From positions 1-64,000 of the forward strand of contig NZ_JAQWCQ010000012.1 in assembly GCF_028705895.1 (NCBI RefSeq): a stretch of DNA of 64,000 nucleotides. The letters run 5' to 3'. The translations under genes and the position numbers were made by a program. The notes beneath the pieces were generated by a model. The model did no database searches. It saw only the letters and a list, made by a program, of their open reading frames with translations, and had not been told where the DNA came from. Every line of letters begins with the position of its first letter. The stretch's first letter is position 1. This document shows, one piece after another, positions 15,423 to 21,732 of the stretch. The DNA comes from Massilibacteroides sp. GTDB taxonomy: Bacteria; Bacteroidota; Bacteroidia; Bacteroidales; Tannerellaceae.

Positions 15423-17216
15423 TTAAGGTCGCCATCCGCCACCACCTCCTCCTGAGGAAACATTTCCAACTGTAGTTACTTTAGAGCTTGTTGTAAATGT
15501 GTTAGAAGTACTACCTTTAGTGTAAGTGGAACCTGTATAATAACCATTAAACTCGCTTCCGCCAGAAACCGAGCCTCCCGAATAGATTGTATATGTTGTA
15601 TTTGCAGATAGATTTGGACTGCTGAATAATAACGTCATCTGAGAAGAGTATGAGCGGGGTATTTTATAGGTTAAGATACTTTCTCCCTTTGTTGATTCGA
15701 TATGAATTAATTGTCCATTGCTTCCCGAACCACCATATTCTACAGAATACTGCGTACTGACAGAACTTGTCGGAGTACTGGTAGCACCTCCTGTACCAAT
15801 CACAATTCCTCCTGTTATCTTAAATGTGTTATTATCGCAATCAAATCCTTCTTCAGGAGAAGTTGAACCCGAAGAAATAACAACACCTCCTGCTATAGTC
15901 AGAGTCCCATTCGAGTCAATGCCGTCATTGGATGAACTGTAACAATAAATATTTCCACCATTGATTGTTATATTATCCGAAGCATTTATGCAATCATCAT
16001 AAGCGACTACTTCTATCGTCCCATTACTTATGGTGATGGTAGATTTGCTCTCAATGCCTTCAGCTTCTGTTTTCGAGGTTTTTACTGTAATATTCCCTCC
16101 GTTAATAATGATATCTCCGTCTGCCTTTATTGCCTTTGCTGCCGTATCGTCATTCCCATATCTGAATTGATCACCGGTTGTGGTAACTTTTATAGAACCA
16201 TTGCCAATGATTATTTTTCCGTCTGCATTAATTCCTTTACCTCCCGCACCACTACTGTTGATCGTTAAATTACCATTTGTTATTTCAAGGTTGTTATCAG
16301 TTTTGATCCCCGATGAGGATTTAATATCTTGCTCTTCTGAATCGTAATAAGCAGAGCCGGTCGTACTGATATTAATATCACCTCCCGAGATAATTGTATT
16401 ACCTGTACTTTTTATTCCTTTTGCCCCTTCGCCTGAAGTAGATAAAGTTATGTTTCCTCCTTCAATCTGTATATCTCCTTCTTCACTATTAATACCATCA
16501 TCTGTAGATACGATTGATAAGACTCCTTGTTTAATCAGACAATATTCTTTTGCATGTATTCCATCTTTATAAGCACTTTTTATACTGATATCCCCATCTG
16601 ATAGATTAATGTAATCATCACTGCAGATTGCGTGTTTATAGTATCCCTTGAGGGTTAGTGCCCCTTTGCCGGAGAAAACCAGTCCTCCTTCAGAGAAGAT
16701 TGTGCCTTTCTGATCTTCTTCACTCGCGGAATAAATATTGTTGTCAATCAAACGATTGGTGGACTCTCCAACTAATGATATCGTAGCTTGTTGTTTGCTC
16801 TGGTTGTTAATAACCGAGCCATCTGAACAGATGAGATTAACCCCATTTAATGCAATAGAAAACGGAGAGTTGCTGTATATTTTAAAAGAACCATCTGTAG
16901 AATAGCCATTAAGTACATACGTTATCTCTGTAGATATACTTGAATTAACCACAATCTTTGCTCCTGAAGTTGAAATGGAAACCCCCTTGTTAGAATAAGG
17001 ATTCTCCACAGAAACACTTTCGCCTGAAAATATAACTGTAACAGCATCTGTAAAGGTGGTATCTTTAGACGTTGCCTTGAAATCATCGTTGAGGTCGTTC
17101 TCATTTGTTGACGTGTTTGGTGTAGAATCGTCTTCAGTAATATCTTTGTCCGTACTACAGGCAGGATAGGAAATTACGACTGCCAAACACAGGAATATAT
17201 AATATAACTTTTTCAT
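15423..17216 (-). CDS. Lipoprotein with Cthe_2159-type beta-solenoid (carbohydrate-binding) domain
   Basis: A 597-residue predicted surface lipoprotein, lipobox YPAC at residues 17-20. The body from about 55 to 590 repeats a short beta unit of the form GNIxI/GGDIxI, about twenty times, with many Asn-Gly and Gly-Gly turns (for example GDITINGGNIT and NLTINSSGAGGKGINADGKI), consistent with a right-handed parallel beta-helix. This matches the Cthe_2159/DUF4353 family reported to bind acidic polysaccharides and calcium. The C-terminus ends SSGGGGGGWRP. It is the last gene of the VTC/DUF4956/DUF2490 unit, 12 bases after DUF2490, and is probably cotranscribed. Confidence 0.8.
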   Translation of the reverse strand: MKKLYYIFLCLAVVISYPACSTDKDITEDDSTPNTSTNENDLNDDFKATSKDTTFTDAVTVIFSGESVSVENPYSNKGVSISTSGAKIVVNSSISTEITYVLNGYSTDGSFKIYSNSPFSIALNGVNLICSDGSVINNQSKQQATISLVGESTNRLIDNNIYSASEEDQKGTIFSEGGLVFSGKGALTLKGYYKHAICSDDYINLSDGDISIKSAYKDGIHAKEYCLIKQGVLSIVSTDDGINSEEGDIQIEGGNITLSTSGEGAKGIKSTGNTIISGGDINISTTGSAYYDSEEQDIKSSSGIKTDNNLEITNGNLTINSSGAGGKGINADGKIIIGNGSIKVTTTGDQFRYGNDDTAAKAIKADGDIIINGGNITVKTSKTEAEGIESKSTITISNGTIEVVAYDDCINASDNITINGGNIYCYSSSNDGIDSNGTLTIAGGVVISSGSTSPEEGFDCDNNTFKITGGIVIGTGGATSTPTSSVSTQYSVEYGGSGSNGQLIHIESTKGESILTYKIPRSYSSQMTLLFSSPNLSANTTYTIYSGGSVSGGSEFNGYYTGSTYTKGSTSNTFTTSSKVTTVGNVSSGGGGGGWRP

Positions 17217-17228
17217 ATTTTTTCTTAT

Positions 17229-17933
17229 TTAAAAGGAATAAACGTAACCAAGTTCCATGATATATTTGTCTGTAGGTTCTTTTACATTCATCTCGTGATC
17301 ATAAATCCCGGATAGATTTAATTTATTTTTTTTGTCTATCTTATAAGCTAAAGACAACGTATATCTTAATGCGTCGAACTCATTTCCATCCGGATTGTTC
17401 AGCTGATAAAATGTCTCAATAGATGCAGAGGGAGTGAATTTGCATTTCGGAATATCGTAAGAAACTTTCAAGCGATTTTTCCAGGTCCATTCCGGATCCA
17501 TTTTGTAGGTGTCTATCTTTCCACTGCTTTTTATCCGGTCGCTGTCATCTTTATAGGTTCCTTGAACCCTCTCCCGTAAAGAGAATGTAAAGCGTTTCCA
17601 TTTTTGCTTTCCCTGCATCGAACCAATTAACCGATGTCTTGGTTGAAAATCGGTATATTCAAGATCATTGAAGTATTGGAATTGATAAGCAACACCAAGT
17701 TTTATATTCTTGATGATTTTGTAATCACCGCCAATCTTAATAGCCCAGCGCCCAACTTCATTCATGTTCTCACGCCCTCTGAACTCTAACTCTCCGTTGA
17801 TTTCCCATTTCTTTCCGATTGATTTTTCTACTCCAATAGTACTCCATATGCCAAAATCATCTGTAGTCTGTGATTTGATCATTTGCTGTATTAAGAAAAG
17901 ACAGACAATTATTAATAATATTCTATTGTTCAT
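17229..17933 (-). CDS. DUF2490 outer-membrane protein
   Basis: A 234-residue protein starting at ATG 17933 (MNNRILLIIVCLF...), which gives a proper signal peptide ending KSQ and leaves seven bases after the DUF4956 stop; ATG 17963 would overlap that gene and precede the signal with a charged run. The mature sequence has alternating hydrophobic strands (ELEFRGREN, GVAYQFQYFND, LSGIYDHEMN) and ends in YVYSF, as outer-membrane barrels do. DUF2490 proteins are barrel-like outer-membrane proteins of unknown function. The gene joins the VTC operon between DUF4956 and the beta-solenoid lipoprotein. Confidence 0.75.
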   Translation of the reverse strand: MNNRILLIIVCLFLIQQMIKSQTTDDFGIWSTIGVEKSIGKKWEINGELEFRGRENMNEVGRWAIKIGGDYKIIKNIKLGVAYQFQYFNDLEYTDFQPRHRLIGSMQGKQKWKRFTFSLRERVQGTYKDDSDRIKSSGKIDTYKMDPEWTWKNRLKVSYDIPKCKFTPSASIETFYQLNNPDGNEFDALRYTLSLAYKIDKKNKLNLSGIYDHEMNVKEPTDKYIMELGYVYSF

Positions 17934-17940
17934 TTTTTTA

Positions 17941-18597
17941 TTAATTGTCATTCGTGAAATCATTTGATTTGATGATGTTATCAGCCGTGTTTATTTGACT
18001 GTTATTATAATAATAGACTCTTACATAAGCTATATCTTTCAGGAAATCTATTTGCCCTATTTCAATTCTTTCTATAGACAAACCTGTACGGTTACGTAAA
18101 TCGTCTAACATTTCTTCTCGTTTTGCCGGAGTGATTAAATCTATCCGTTCATATATAATGAGTTTGCAAGCTGTATGATGTATTACCCGCGTTGTTTCCA
18201 ATATATAGAATGAGATAATAAAAATCAAATTAGTGGATAGAAGTTCAATAATGCTAACCTTGTGATTACTTAATGCGTTAATTACAGAAATACCAATTAT
18301 TGCAAAAAGATAAGTCATCTCTCTCACCGGAAGAGTATCTGTTCGATAACGAAGAATTCCAAAAATAGCAAAAAGTCCTAACGCAAATCCGACCTGTATT
18401 TTGACACTATCCAGTAGGAATATCATAAGAAAAATCGTGATGCTTACCATAAAAAAAGTAAATAAATAGTCTCGTCTTTGAGTCTTCTTATAATATAGAA
18501 AACAGATAATAATACCTGTTGTAATAAGATTAAATAAAAACCTGGTTGTTAATAACAAAAAGGCATCCGGATTGAAGAGATTCTCTATATTATTCAT
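17941..18597 (-). CDS. DUF4956 inner-membrane protein
   Basis: A 218-residue polytopic protein. Hydrophobic segments lie near residues 15-35, 45-62, 66-82, 95-108 and 118-135, followed by a soluble C-terminal part of about 80 residues (IIYERIDLITPAKREEMLDDLRNRTGLSIERIEIGQIDF) that looks like a small alpha/beta regulatory domain. LRYRTDTLPVREMTYLF after the membrane part is the best conserved stretch of the DUF4956 family as I know it. The start overlaps the VTC stop by 8 bases. Bacterial VTC genes very often carry DUF4956 as neighbour, so the two are likely partners. Confidence 0.75.
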   Translation of the reverse strand: MNNIENLFNPDAFLLLTTRFLFNLITTGIIICFLYYKKTQRRDYLFTFFMVSITIFLMIFLLDSVKIQVGFALGLFAIFGILRYRTDTLPVREMTYLFAIIGISVINALSNHKVSIIELLSTNLIFIISFYILETTRVIHHTACKLIIYERIDLITPAKREEMLDDLRNRTGLSIERIEIGQIDFLKDIAYVRVYYYNNSQINTADNIIKSNDFTNDN

Positions 18598-19351
18598 AAT
18601 CGAAAGATGTTATTTTATGTAGATATTTTAGTTTGTACTTGAAATTGTTTGTTTTTATTAATGCCGAGTTTTCCGTGAGTGACACTCCTATACAATATTT
18701 GCTAAAACCTTTTGGTTTAATCCTTAACGAATTGAGGTTATTCATAATGGGGGAAAAGGACGAATGCTCTTTTTTTATCTCAATAATGACAACTTCCGGC
18801 AAGAAAATCTTTCTTTGTGTTTTATTGTTGATAAAACATAGATTCAGATCAATCGTAACTCGTTCTGTTTTCTCTTTATTAATAAGTGTTATGCGATTAT
18901 ATTTACTGCATAATTTTGCTTCCAGAAGCATCGGATCGTAAGGTATGAGTGAGTACAAAAAAGGTAAGCCGTCTTCATTGATCAGATCCGTTTGATGGTA
19001 GTTAATTCTTGTTTTTTGCGTTACCCCTTTATTTGATTTTTTCTTTACTTCAAGAAAACATAGTTTTGAATCAACGTATTCGCGTGTGCGAACTTTTATA
19101 CGGTTTAATTTCCCGTTCTGATGGGCGCGATACATTTTATAATCCGGAGTGTCGAAATAAATCGTATTGTATTCGAAGATATTTTTATTCTTTATTTCCT
19201 GGATAAAATAATCCTGAGACAAAGAGGAGAACATTTGTAATAAATAGTCCCGAGGAAAAATGAATTTTTTGTCTGTACGCCTCATAAGGCGTATATTACT
19301 CATGTCTTTGAGTGATATACGCTCAAATGCACTGAAATCGATCTTTATCAT
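18590..19351 (-). CDS. VTC-domain protein (polyphosphate polymerase fold)
   Basis: A 253-residue protein with the TTM (triphosphate tunnel metalloenzyme) fold used by yeast Vtc4 to make polyphosphate from ATP. Start is ATG 19351, preceded by AAAGGA eight bases upstream; a longer reading to 19369 would need TTG. Tunnel residues seen: RRTDKKFIF (Lys28/29), YNTIYFDTPDYKMY (62-74), RIKVRTREY (R84, K86, R88, R90), FLEVKKK (E101, K103-105), ERVTIDL (R164, D168), EVVIIEIKK (E186, E191, K193) and GFSKY (K218). These cover the basic and acidic positions of active Vtc4, so activity is plausible. No SPX or membrane domain is fused; membrane tethering would need DUF4956. Confidence 0.8.
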   Translation of the reverse strand: MIKIDFSAFERISLKDMSNIRLMRRTDKKFIFPRDYLLQMFSSLSQDYFIQEIKNKNIFEYNTIYFDTPDYKMYRAHQNGKLNRIKVRTREYVDSKLCFLEVKKKSNKGVTQKTRINYHQTDLINEDGLPFLYSLIPYDPMLLEAKLCSKYNRITLINKEKTERVTIDLNLCFINNKTQRKIFLPEVVIIEIKKEHSSFSPIMNNLNSLRIKPKGFSKYCIGVSLTENSALIKTNNFKYKLKYLHKITSFDYE

Positions 19352-19391
19352 AGCTGTTCCTTTATCCAAATCGCTACTAAGATATTGGGTA

Positions 19392-19403
19392 ATGATATAT
19401 CAT
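19392..19403. promoter_or_regulatory. 12-bp palindrome upstream of the VTC operon
   Basis: ATGATATATCAT is a perfect dyad 41 bases before the VTC start codon, in an AT-rich leader without a clear promoter. It could be an operator. Confidence 0.25.
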
Positions 19404-19465
19404 AATATCAAATGTTTGCGAATCGGAGAAAATAGCTGCTGAAGCGACTTCTTAGGGAGATGAAA

Positions 19466-19505
19466 AGAAAAAGGCCGTCTCAAATATGTTGAGACAGCCT
19501 TTTGG
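19466..19505 (-). terminator. Terminator of the aquaporin transcript
   Basis: On the minus strand, AAGGC-T-GTCTCAA pairs with TTGAGAC-G-GCCTT around 19471-19502 and is followed by TTTTTCTTTTC. It lies 17 bases past the aquaporin stop. Confidence 0.8.
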
Positions 19506-19522: not shown

Positions 19523-20194
19523 TTATTTTGTTTCAGGTTCTGTATCTATTGCTTTCCATGTGAATGCTGCAACAATAGCGCCTACAAAAGGAGCAACAAT
19601 GAAGAGCCACAGTTGAGAAAGGGCTTCGCCTCCCTGGAATATAGCCGGGTCGATACTACGAGCCGGATTTACGGATGTTCCCGTAATAGGAATACAAACA
19701 ATGTGGATCAACACAAGTGTAAGACCTATTGCTAATCCTGCAAAATTATTAGGAGCACCTTTAGAGGTAGAACCAAAGACTACGAGCAGGAAGATAAAGG
19801 TAAAGACTGCTTCTGCAATAAAGGCCTGAGTTAGATCTGTATATCAGTTTGCCCCAGTCAATGTAGTTGTTGATTCTATATTTTGAGCTAATAAGAAAAG
19901 AATACCGGAGCCGATAATAGCACCAATAACCTGGGCGATCATATATCCTGCCGCATCTTTCCCTGAAATTTTATTCGCTACTAACATTCCCAATGTGATG
20001 GCCGGATTAATATGACAGCCTGAGATCTTTCCAATAGTATAGGCCATTGAGACAACAGAGAGTCCAAAGGCAAAAGCAACACCTAAAGTGCCAACAGCAG
20101 CAAACGGCTGACCTGTTCCTGCAAATACAGCACTTCCACATCCCATAAGTATGAGTACCATAGTACCCACTAATTCTGCAAAATACTTTTTCAT
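19523..20194 (-). pseudogene. aqpZ: Aquaporin Z-like gene interrupted by an in-frame TGA
   Basis: MIP-family water channel in one continuous frame except for TGA at 19846-19844, codon 117, in a loop reading LTGAN*YTDLTQAF; a single base change from GGA would give GANGYTD, as in related channels. Both NPA motifs are intact: HINPAITL (NPA 63-65) and SVNPARS. The selectivity residues of AqpZ (Phe in AFAFG, His in LIHIV, Thr in ITGTS, Arg in NPARS) are all present, so the ancestral protein was a water channel of about 223 residues. Start is ATG 20194; the upstream GTG at 20233 is less likely. No frameshift is seen. Sequencing error or recent inactivation cannot be told apart here. Confidence 0.8.
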
Positions 20195-20298
20195 TTTTTT
20201 GTTCTTTTTGTTAATACTAAGTGTTTTTACCACATAAAATTAAACATTTTTAACTTGTGTTTGGTTTTACTTAGCATGGTTATTTGAACAAAAATAAA

Positions 20299-20820: not shown

Positions 20821-21732
20821 TTACTTTTTAATTAAAGTTTGTCTTAATCCGTAGATTTTAGAACTCCACGGAGAATAAGCCTTGGCTGCCCGATTAATTG
20901 TCAGCACGGTATCCTCAATGTCATGTAAATCTTCGGAATACTTATAAAGAGCAATAGCTATAGCGGCTAATTCTTCATTTGTAAGGCCGTCTCTCAGTTT
21001 TGTTTCTTCTTTTGTTACTTTCGTACCACTGGTTGCCTCTTTTACTTTCTGATCTTTTTTGCGAGCCACCCGAATATGAGCTTTTCCAAGATACATGAAA
21101 ATTATATAGAGCAGGAATAAACAACATAACACAACCGTTACGGCAACTACGGTCAAAACAACCCCGGATGGGTCAGCTTGACGGAATAATTCCGAACGAC
21201 TGACCGTTTCTAATGTATTGTTCGTTGCACCGGGAGTTAAAACCGGCAGATTCATCAGTTTTTCTGTTCGATCTTCACTCTCAAACCACCCATAAGAGAC
21301 ATCTTCAAGCATTTCTGAAGGATTGAACTCTAAACGATCTATCGGTTCTTCTCTGTTATCCGGATCATAGAACTCAATAAAATTCGTATCATCCAAGGTG
21401 AAGTTTGTATATCGTGGACCTCTCTGAGTATTGCCTTCTGCGAAAAAGATAATATAATCGCGCGGGCCAATTATCATTTCCGAGGTTTTTGGAATACGAT
21501 ATTCTTTCCCTTTTACTTTTAGAATTCCTCCTCCGATATTTACTTTCCCATATCCGGTATTGAATAATTCGATCCAGGAATGAGCTTGTCCCAGATTATC
21601 TTTATATCCATTCTTATTAATTACTTGTATTTCATTAATTCGGATGTCTTTCAGATTTTGCCCACTTACTGAAGCGACCGAAAAAAGGCATAGGATCAGT
21701 GCAACTATTTTTGATAACAATAATTGTTTCAT
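20821..21732 (-). CDS. OadG-type subunit with an N-terminal lamin-tail domain
   Basis: A 303-residue membrane protein with an unusual layout. Residues 1-24 are a signal peptide. Residues 28-170 look like a lamin-tail domain (LTD): IRINEIQVINKNG, HSWIELFNTG, EMIIGPRDYIIFF and NFIEFYDPD. One membrane helix follows at 189-214, then a basic linker and a helical C-terminus typical of OadG gamma/delta subunits of sodium-pumping decarboxylases. OadG subunits normally tether the carboxyltransferase to the membrane beta subunit; a periplasmic LTD would be additional. It lies between the carboxyltransferase gene (14 bases upstream) and the biotin-carrier gene. Confidence 0.8.
   Translation of the reverse strand: MKQLLLSKIVALILCLFSVASVSGQNLKDIRINEIQVINKNGYKDNLGQAHSWIELFNTGYGKVNIGGGILKVKGKEYRIPKTSEMIIGPRDYIIFFAEGNTQRGPRYTNFTLDDTNFIEFYDPDNREEPIDRLEFNPSEMLEDVSYGWFESEDRTEKLMNLPVLTPGATNNTLETVSRSELFRQADPSGVVLTVVAVTVVLCCLFLLYIIFMYLGKAHIRVARKKDQKVKEATSGTKVTKEETKLRDGLTNEELAAIAIALYKYSEDLHDIEDTVLTINRAAKAYSPWSSKIYGLRQTLIKK

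Follow-up and report, generated by a model that had tools for sequence, protein, structure and literature searches.

A conserved, modular VTC–DUF4956 gene set with outer-membrane and surface partners in Bacteroidota

Bacterial polyphosphate is usually ascribed to PPK enzymes, which fill cytoplasmic granules. In yeast, the VTC complex couples polyphosphate synthesis to translocation (PMC9911596). Genes for CotH, a polyphosphate polymerase, DUF4956, and DUF4832 are accessory genes by Gram-positive pel clusters (PMC7112168), and NELoc-2 of Clostridium perfringens has VTC and CotH genes (PMC11677781). Here, we examine a run of four genes, encoding a VTC-domain protein, a DUF4956 membrane protein, a DUF2490 protein, and a Cthe_2159-family lipoprotein, in the first 64,000 nt of a Massilibacteroides contig (NZ_JAQWCQ010000012.1; this whole stretch is called the window). 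The four-gene set is real, conserved, and modular.

An earlier note on this DNA held that no function is known for such a set. Our literature search, with subscription journals and preprints mostly outside its reach, likewise turned up no work on what a VTC–DUF4956 unit does in bacteria. The statement holds, although parts of the set are on record: the core with CotH beside pel clusters, and a VTC–CotH combination in C. perfringens. The CotH–VTC–DUF4956 core beside pel genes is thus already known. New here are the form of the set in Bacteroidota, in which DUF2490 is added and the surface slot takes either Cthe_2159 or CotH, the relationship of DUF4956 to MgtC, the occurrence of VTC-less DUF4956 beside HlyD-type adaptors, and loci away from the core at which DUF2490 pairs with one or the other of the two surface families.

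The four genes and their products

All four open reading frames (ORFs) lie on the minus strand within 15423-19351, listed here in transcription order:

18590..19351, minus strand: VTC-domain (triphosphate tunnel) polyphosphate polymerase-like protein, 253 aa, soluble (PF09359)
17941..18597, minus strand: DUF4956 inner-membrane protein, 218 aa (PF16316; AlphaFold (AF2) model)
17229..17963, minus strand: DUF2490 outer-membrane beta-barrel-like protein with a signal peptide, 244 aa (PF10677)
15423..17216, minus strand: Cthe_2159-family beta-solenoid lipoprotein, 597 aa, pI 4.46 (PF14262)

The tight same-strand run described in the earlier note is confirmed at these positions: the VTC and DUF4956 genes overlap by 8 nt, those of DUF4956 and DUF2490 by 23 nt, and 12 nt separate DUF2490 from the lipoprotein. 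The 23-nt overlap assumes the longest DUF2490 start and vanishes if the Met at codon 11 (~17933) is used, which is likely the true start because this internal Met heads a normal signal peptide. The VTC gene starts with ATG, and translation might instead begin at a TTG at 19369, giving a longer protein. Family assignments were clear for VTC (E 3e-27, 96.1 bits against a curated Pfam cut-off of 23), DUF4956 (E 1.1e-52, 178.6 bits against 30.6), DUF2490 (E 5.1e-34, 118.1 bits against 29.8), and Cthe_2159 (E 4.6e-58, 197 bits against 25.8).

The best solved sequence for a profile of 76 VTC relatives was yeast Vtc4 (3g3q, E 1.8e-15). The AF2 model (pLDDT 95) has a closed tunnel fold whose best match in the Protein Data Bank (PDB) is 3g3r (E 3.7e-12); the top structural matches are yeast VTC-subunit tunnel domains, and in both profile and structure comparisons the hydrolases that share the fold fall far behind Vtc4. 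Alignment pairs Vtc4 R264, R266, E426, K458, K200, and R361 with R88, R90, E191, K218, K29, and R153 of the window protein, respectively, and K428 with K193, such that all aligned Vtc4 active-site residues are kept. Of these, R264, R266, and E426 were the mutation targets used to inactivate yeast Vtc4 (PMC9911596), while K458 has been named catalytic (PMC4641920). Y65, D67, R84, R88, E101, K103, R153, D168, K218, and Y219 are invariant across the VTC alignment. The tunnel residues and fold previously attributed to this protein are therefore present, and on homology and modeling we take it to be a probable polyphosphate polymerase. The polypeptide comprises the tunnel domain only, without the SPX regulatory domain and transmembrane (TM) helices of eukaryotic VTC. 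At another locus (L137, 3800-6136), a 778-aa open frame carries a C-terminal VTC domain preceded by ~500 residues without a Pfam match.

The AF2 model of DUF4956 (pLDDT 87) has five predicted TM helices followed by a C-terminal ferredoxin-like domain, in keeping with the earlier description of a polytopic protein overlapping the VTC gene. No fold relative of the model was found in the PDB at E <= 0.001. Residues R83-Y84-R85 sit at the cytoplasmic end of helix 3, and because of the loop charges (positive-inside rule) we infer that both this motif and the C-terminal domain face the cytoplasm. R85 is invariant in the family and R83 is invariant or replaced by K/H, with or without VTC linkage; the R-[FY]-R motif, being common to VTC-linked and VTC-less members, is therefore a DUF4956 family trait and not VTC-specific.

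Profile comparisons identify DUF4956 as a remote relative of MgtC. The window protein itself does not match Pfam MgtC (PF02308), while 17 of 76 DUF4956 relatives match weakly (best 5.6e-5), and an MgtC search of the genomes returned two DUF4956 genes at 21 bits, below the cut-off of 31.4. A second, non-Bacteroidales-type DUF4956 clade aligns with MgtC at an hhalign probability of 96.6% across the full length, C-terminal domain included (197 columns, E 5.7e-10); the reversed control gave 1%, and just one other polytopic family served as a further control. The window clade compared directly with MgtC gave 0.4%, which is not significant, and is joined to it through the second clade by a clade-to-clade link of 95.4%.

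The DUF2490 family is a putative porin family, TC 1.B.81 (PMC4827864). BT3498-99 of Bacteroides thetaiotaomicron (DUF4956 and DUF2490) both appear in an iron-stimulon table (PMC10434189), an entry to which we give no weight because its p value is 0.175. The lipoprotein begins with a lipobox-like C20 followed by an acidic, surface-export-like stretch (MKKLYYIFLCLAVVISYPAC-STDKDITEDD). Several VTC-linked relatives are likewise lipoprotein-like, and others have ordinary signal peptides. Binding of cellulose and of polygalacturonate has been reported for the Cthe_2159 family (PMC6712302), and no solved structure matches the window member by sequence. At one locus with the same gene order (L071, 7964-9223), a glycoside hydrolase family 5 (GH5) cellulase gene lies just upstream of the run.

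A constant core and an exchangeable surface slot

Co-occurrence was scored in 296 genomes of the phylum, 118 of the order, and 14 controls outside Bacteroidota, using Fisher tests that ignore shared ancestry. DUF4956 was present in every one of the 48 phylum-sample genomes with VTC (48/48). Within the order, VTC occurred in 59 genomes, DUF4956 in 63, and both in 58 (odds ratio 626, p 3e-26), and the VTC genomes were enriched in CotH (49/59, p 2e-7), DUF2490 (34/59, p 2e-5), and Cthe_2159 (20/59, p 4e-4). Among the controls, the same two genomes (Corynebacterium glutamicum and Methanosarcina acetivorans) carry VTC, DUF4956, and CotH. The earlier note would have abandoned its model had the families been confined to this lineage; they co-occur widely, in 58 of the 59 order-sample VTC genomes for the core pair and in the exact window order in other genera. 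Replacement of PPK1 by VTC was considered and rejected, as PPK1 showed no association (37/59 VTC genomes, p 0.43).

Gene neighborhoods were compared at ~180 loci, comprising 99 sampled VTC loci and 80 further named loci gathered with DUF4956 as the query and hence biased to the window's DUF4956 clade. DUF4956 shared a same-strand run with VTC in 96 of the 99; among the three exceptions, a contig end accounts for L116 and loss in the ORF filter for L137. Twelve of the 80 named loci at first lacked VTC or DUF4956. In several of these, a six-frame search restored both genes, which the ORF filter had dropped, and some of the rest start at a contig end. The counts that follow refer to the 165 loci with both VTC and DUF4956 and retain a slight undercount from the filter.

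Same-strand runs at these loci included DUF2490 in 97, CotH in 36, and Cthe_2159 in 18, but CotH and Cthe_2159 never shared a run (0/165, against 3.9 expected by simple product), a mutual exclusion that lineage may explain in part. Operons that are alike in other respects, with histidine kinase and LytTR regulator genes at their end, have either CotH (L075) or Cthe_2159 (L111, L121) in one and the same position. The exact window order recurs in L071, L096, L121, L188 (Bacteroides salyersiae), L192, L217, L236, and L239, amounting to about nine distinct loci, other genera included; L071 and L182 are, judged by length, the same contig. The four families also occur together in L171 (B. cellulosilyticus), where a run of N parts VTC from DUF4956, and the apparent VTC–DUF4956 fusion there was rejected as proof of contact, the join being that run of N. 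The single fixed four-part system implied by the earlier note thus gives way to a modular one, with a constant VTC–DUF4956 core, DUF2490 common in the Bacteroidales-type clade, and at least two alternative surface parts, Cthe_2159 and CotH. Three kinds of protein (arylsulfotransferase-like, propeller, and CotH), each bearing a type IX secretion tail, are encoded immediately upstream of the VTC operon in L075 (102-5369), a layout common to several other loci.

The outer modules also occur apart from the core. In five genomes whose VTC–DUF4956 locus lacks DUF2490, this gene lies elsewhere, beside CotH (adjoining in L276, L277, and L278; two small genes between in L279) or Cthe_2159 (L273). In L280 (DUF2490–CotH) and L274 (DUF2490–Cthe_2159), the DUF2490 gene is an additional copy, the genome also having one at its VTC locus. 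HlyD-type adaptors flank VTC–DUF4956 in ~26 loci of the other clade and are homologous to those beside VTC-less DUF4956 (hhalign 98.7% for c3-c9, 98.4% for c9 against the VTC-less set). Loci L301-L308 encode, in a conserved run without VTC, a 182-aa DUF6580 protein, DUF4956, an HlyD-type adaptor, a weak match to outer-membrane efflux (OEP) proteins, and a short-chain dehydrogenase (Pfam families checked on L302), resembling a VTC-free DUF4956 export operon. Across these loci, the units read as an inner-membrane part (DUF4956 with or without VTC), a periplasmic or outer-membrane part (adaptor and OEP, or DUF2490), and a surface part (CotH or Cthe_2159). In L300 and L310, the genes after VTC-less DUF4956 encode a protein that no Pfam family matches and a calcineurin-like phosphoesterase (metallophosphoesterase).

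Proposed polyphosphate export and competing explanations

We tentatively favor a role for VTC–DUF4956 in synthesizing polyphosphate and carrying it over the inner membrane, the outer-membrane and surface proteins forming an attached module. VTC would polymerize ATP phosphate into polyphosphate in the cytoplasm while docked on DUF4956. This MgtC-like inner-membrane protein of five helices would guide the growing chain over the membrane, much like the TM portion of the yeast complex. DUF2490 would be the outer-membrane part, in place of the efflux-like proteins found beside DUF4956 elsewhere, and the swappable surface protein (Cthe_2159 here; the secreted kinase-like CotH in relatives) may use, anchor, or act beside the exported polymer. 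Polymerase activity, translocation, and any physical contact among the four proteins are inferred. Docking, as the earlier note supposed, fits the near-absolute dependence of VTC on DUF4956. The envelope pathway gains support from the adaptor and outer-membrane context of DUF4956 at other loci.

Several observations weigh against such an export route. Our search found no literature report of polymerase activity for any bacterial VTC. The window genome also encodes PPK1, which VTC neither replaces nor excludes, and the window locus has no adaptor to span the periplasm. DUF4956 occurs without VTC in 26 of the 74 phylum-sample genomes that encode it, and its role is therefore not tied to polyphosphate alone. 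Every Cthe_2159 relative is acidic (pI 4.05-5.43), unlike a polyanion binder. This acidity, shared by the window member, casts doubt on the display of polyphosphate by the lipoprotein itself, one of the roles that the earlier note proposed for the outer parts; direct binding is unlikely unless divalent cations bridge the two. Finally, D27 of VTC (T198 in Vtc4) is the sole acidic-patch-like position in the tunnel.

This last residue bears on whether the protein is instead another triphosphate-tunnel enzyme, a triphosphatase or phosphotransferase by which a polysaccharide precursor or a protein would be modified for export. The fold hosts many activities (PMC4641920), and the pel linkage in Gram-positives (PMC7112168) would suit such a role, but R25 and K193 stand where hydrolases have acidic-patch glutamates (PMC4641920, read onto our alignment). 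With the full Vtc4 set kept, Vtc4 first in both profile and structure matches, and no PelG in the window genome, we regard this alternative as unlikely. It is also possible, if on balance rather doubtful, that VTC–DUF4956 makes polyphosphate at the inner membrane face to control ATP, phosphate, or metal balance, in the manner proposed for MgtC proteins, DUF2490 and Cthe_2159 being merely co-regulated envelope genes. MgtC proteins are regulators in known cases, and the kinship of DUF4956 with them, the variation of the outer genes from locus to locus, and the histidine kinase and LytTR regulator genes that follow several operons agree with this. Such a regulatory role is harder to square with the adaptor and OEP-like neighbors of DUF4956, or with DUF2490 joining the core repeatedly together with CotH or Cthe_2159 and being enriched in VTC genomes.

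The outer genes might even be hitch-hikers in a chance or lineage-bound neighborhood, leaving VTC–DUF4956 as the sole functional pair. Cthe_2159 is present in just 18 of the 165 runs, and its VTC-linked members are dispersed and do not form one clade in a rough tree, which the repeat-rich alignment makes weak. That dispersal, however, suggests repeated linkage, and the 97 runs with DUF2490, the recurrence of the exact order, and the genome-level enrichment of both outer families, shared ancestry ignored, make hitch-hiking improbable in our view. As an extension of polyphosphate export, it is conceivable, though a long shot, that the exported polymer is a phosphate source or scaffold for extracellular proteins: CotH kinase-like proteins, lacking ATP outside the cell, would use polyphosphate as the donor, and in operons that, like the present one, have no CotH, the polymer would be kept at the surface by a beta-solenoid lipoprotein in a cation-dependent way, the whole forming a dedicated polyphosphate secretion system on an MgtC-like channel.

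If polyphosphate export is correct, many Bacteroidota, gut Bacteroides included, make polyphosphate for the envelope or the outside. DUF4956 gains a fold relative in MgtC, DUF2490 and Cthe_2159 gain a functional context, and the presence of the operon in culturable Bacteroides, such as B. salyersiae DSM 18765 and B. cellulosilyticus DSM 14838, makes the question testable.

Locus boundaries and comparison with known systems

Upstream of the operon lies one further feature:

19503-19469, minus strand: intrinsic-terminator-like hairpin, 15 pairs followed by a T-rich stretch, closing the upstream aquaporin unit

Because this hairpin closes the aquaporin unit, the operon probably starts somewhere in 19352-19468. 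The terminator scan gave 4 sites against 3.2 expected in shuffles, so the position and strength of the hairpin weigh more than the count. No match to the Bacteroides-type promoter TTTG/TAnnTTTG was found upstream of the operon. The aquaporin (MIP) gene (19523-20233, minus strand) has an in-frame stop at 19844-19846, after which the same frame resumes in the second half; a point mutation, a pseudogene, or a sequencing error would each account for it. Farther upstream (20821-21732, minus strand), a protein fuses a lamin-tail-like domain, below the Pfam cut-off, to an oxaloacetate decarboxylase gamma chain.

Assignment of the window locus to the CotH–VTC–DUF4956 pel module was rejected, as the genome has no PelG and its CotH lies on another contig (C16). 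The locus does share with the Gram-positive pel accessory genes (PMC7112168) a VTC and DUF4956 core in one run, and differs in having Cthe_2159 in the CotH slot and DUF2490 added. NELoc-2 of C. perfringens (PMC11677781) similarly combines VTC-domain proteins with CotH, but it is a Gram-positive locus with two VTC genes and no DUF2490 or Cthe_2159 named. Where the second DUF4956 clade aligns with the MgtC/SapB family over its full length, C-terminal domain included, DUF4956 is set apart by scores below the Pfam MgtC cut-off, a near-invariant R-[FY]-R, and linkage to VTC or adaptors. The lipoprotein belongs to the same PF14262 beta-solenoid family as Clostridium thermocellum Cthe_2159 (PMC6712302), but is encoded with VTC, DUF4956, and DUF2490. 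Compared with the yeast VTC complex (Vtc1/Vtc3/Vtc4), the window locus has in common a tunnel-domain polymerase with identical active-site residues and a coupled membrane part that would carry the polymer, whereas its VTC protein lacks SPX, its membrane part is separate and MgtC-like, and the whole is set in a Gram-negative envelope with outer-membrane and surface genes.

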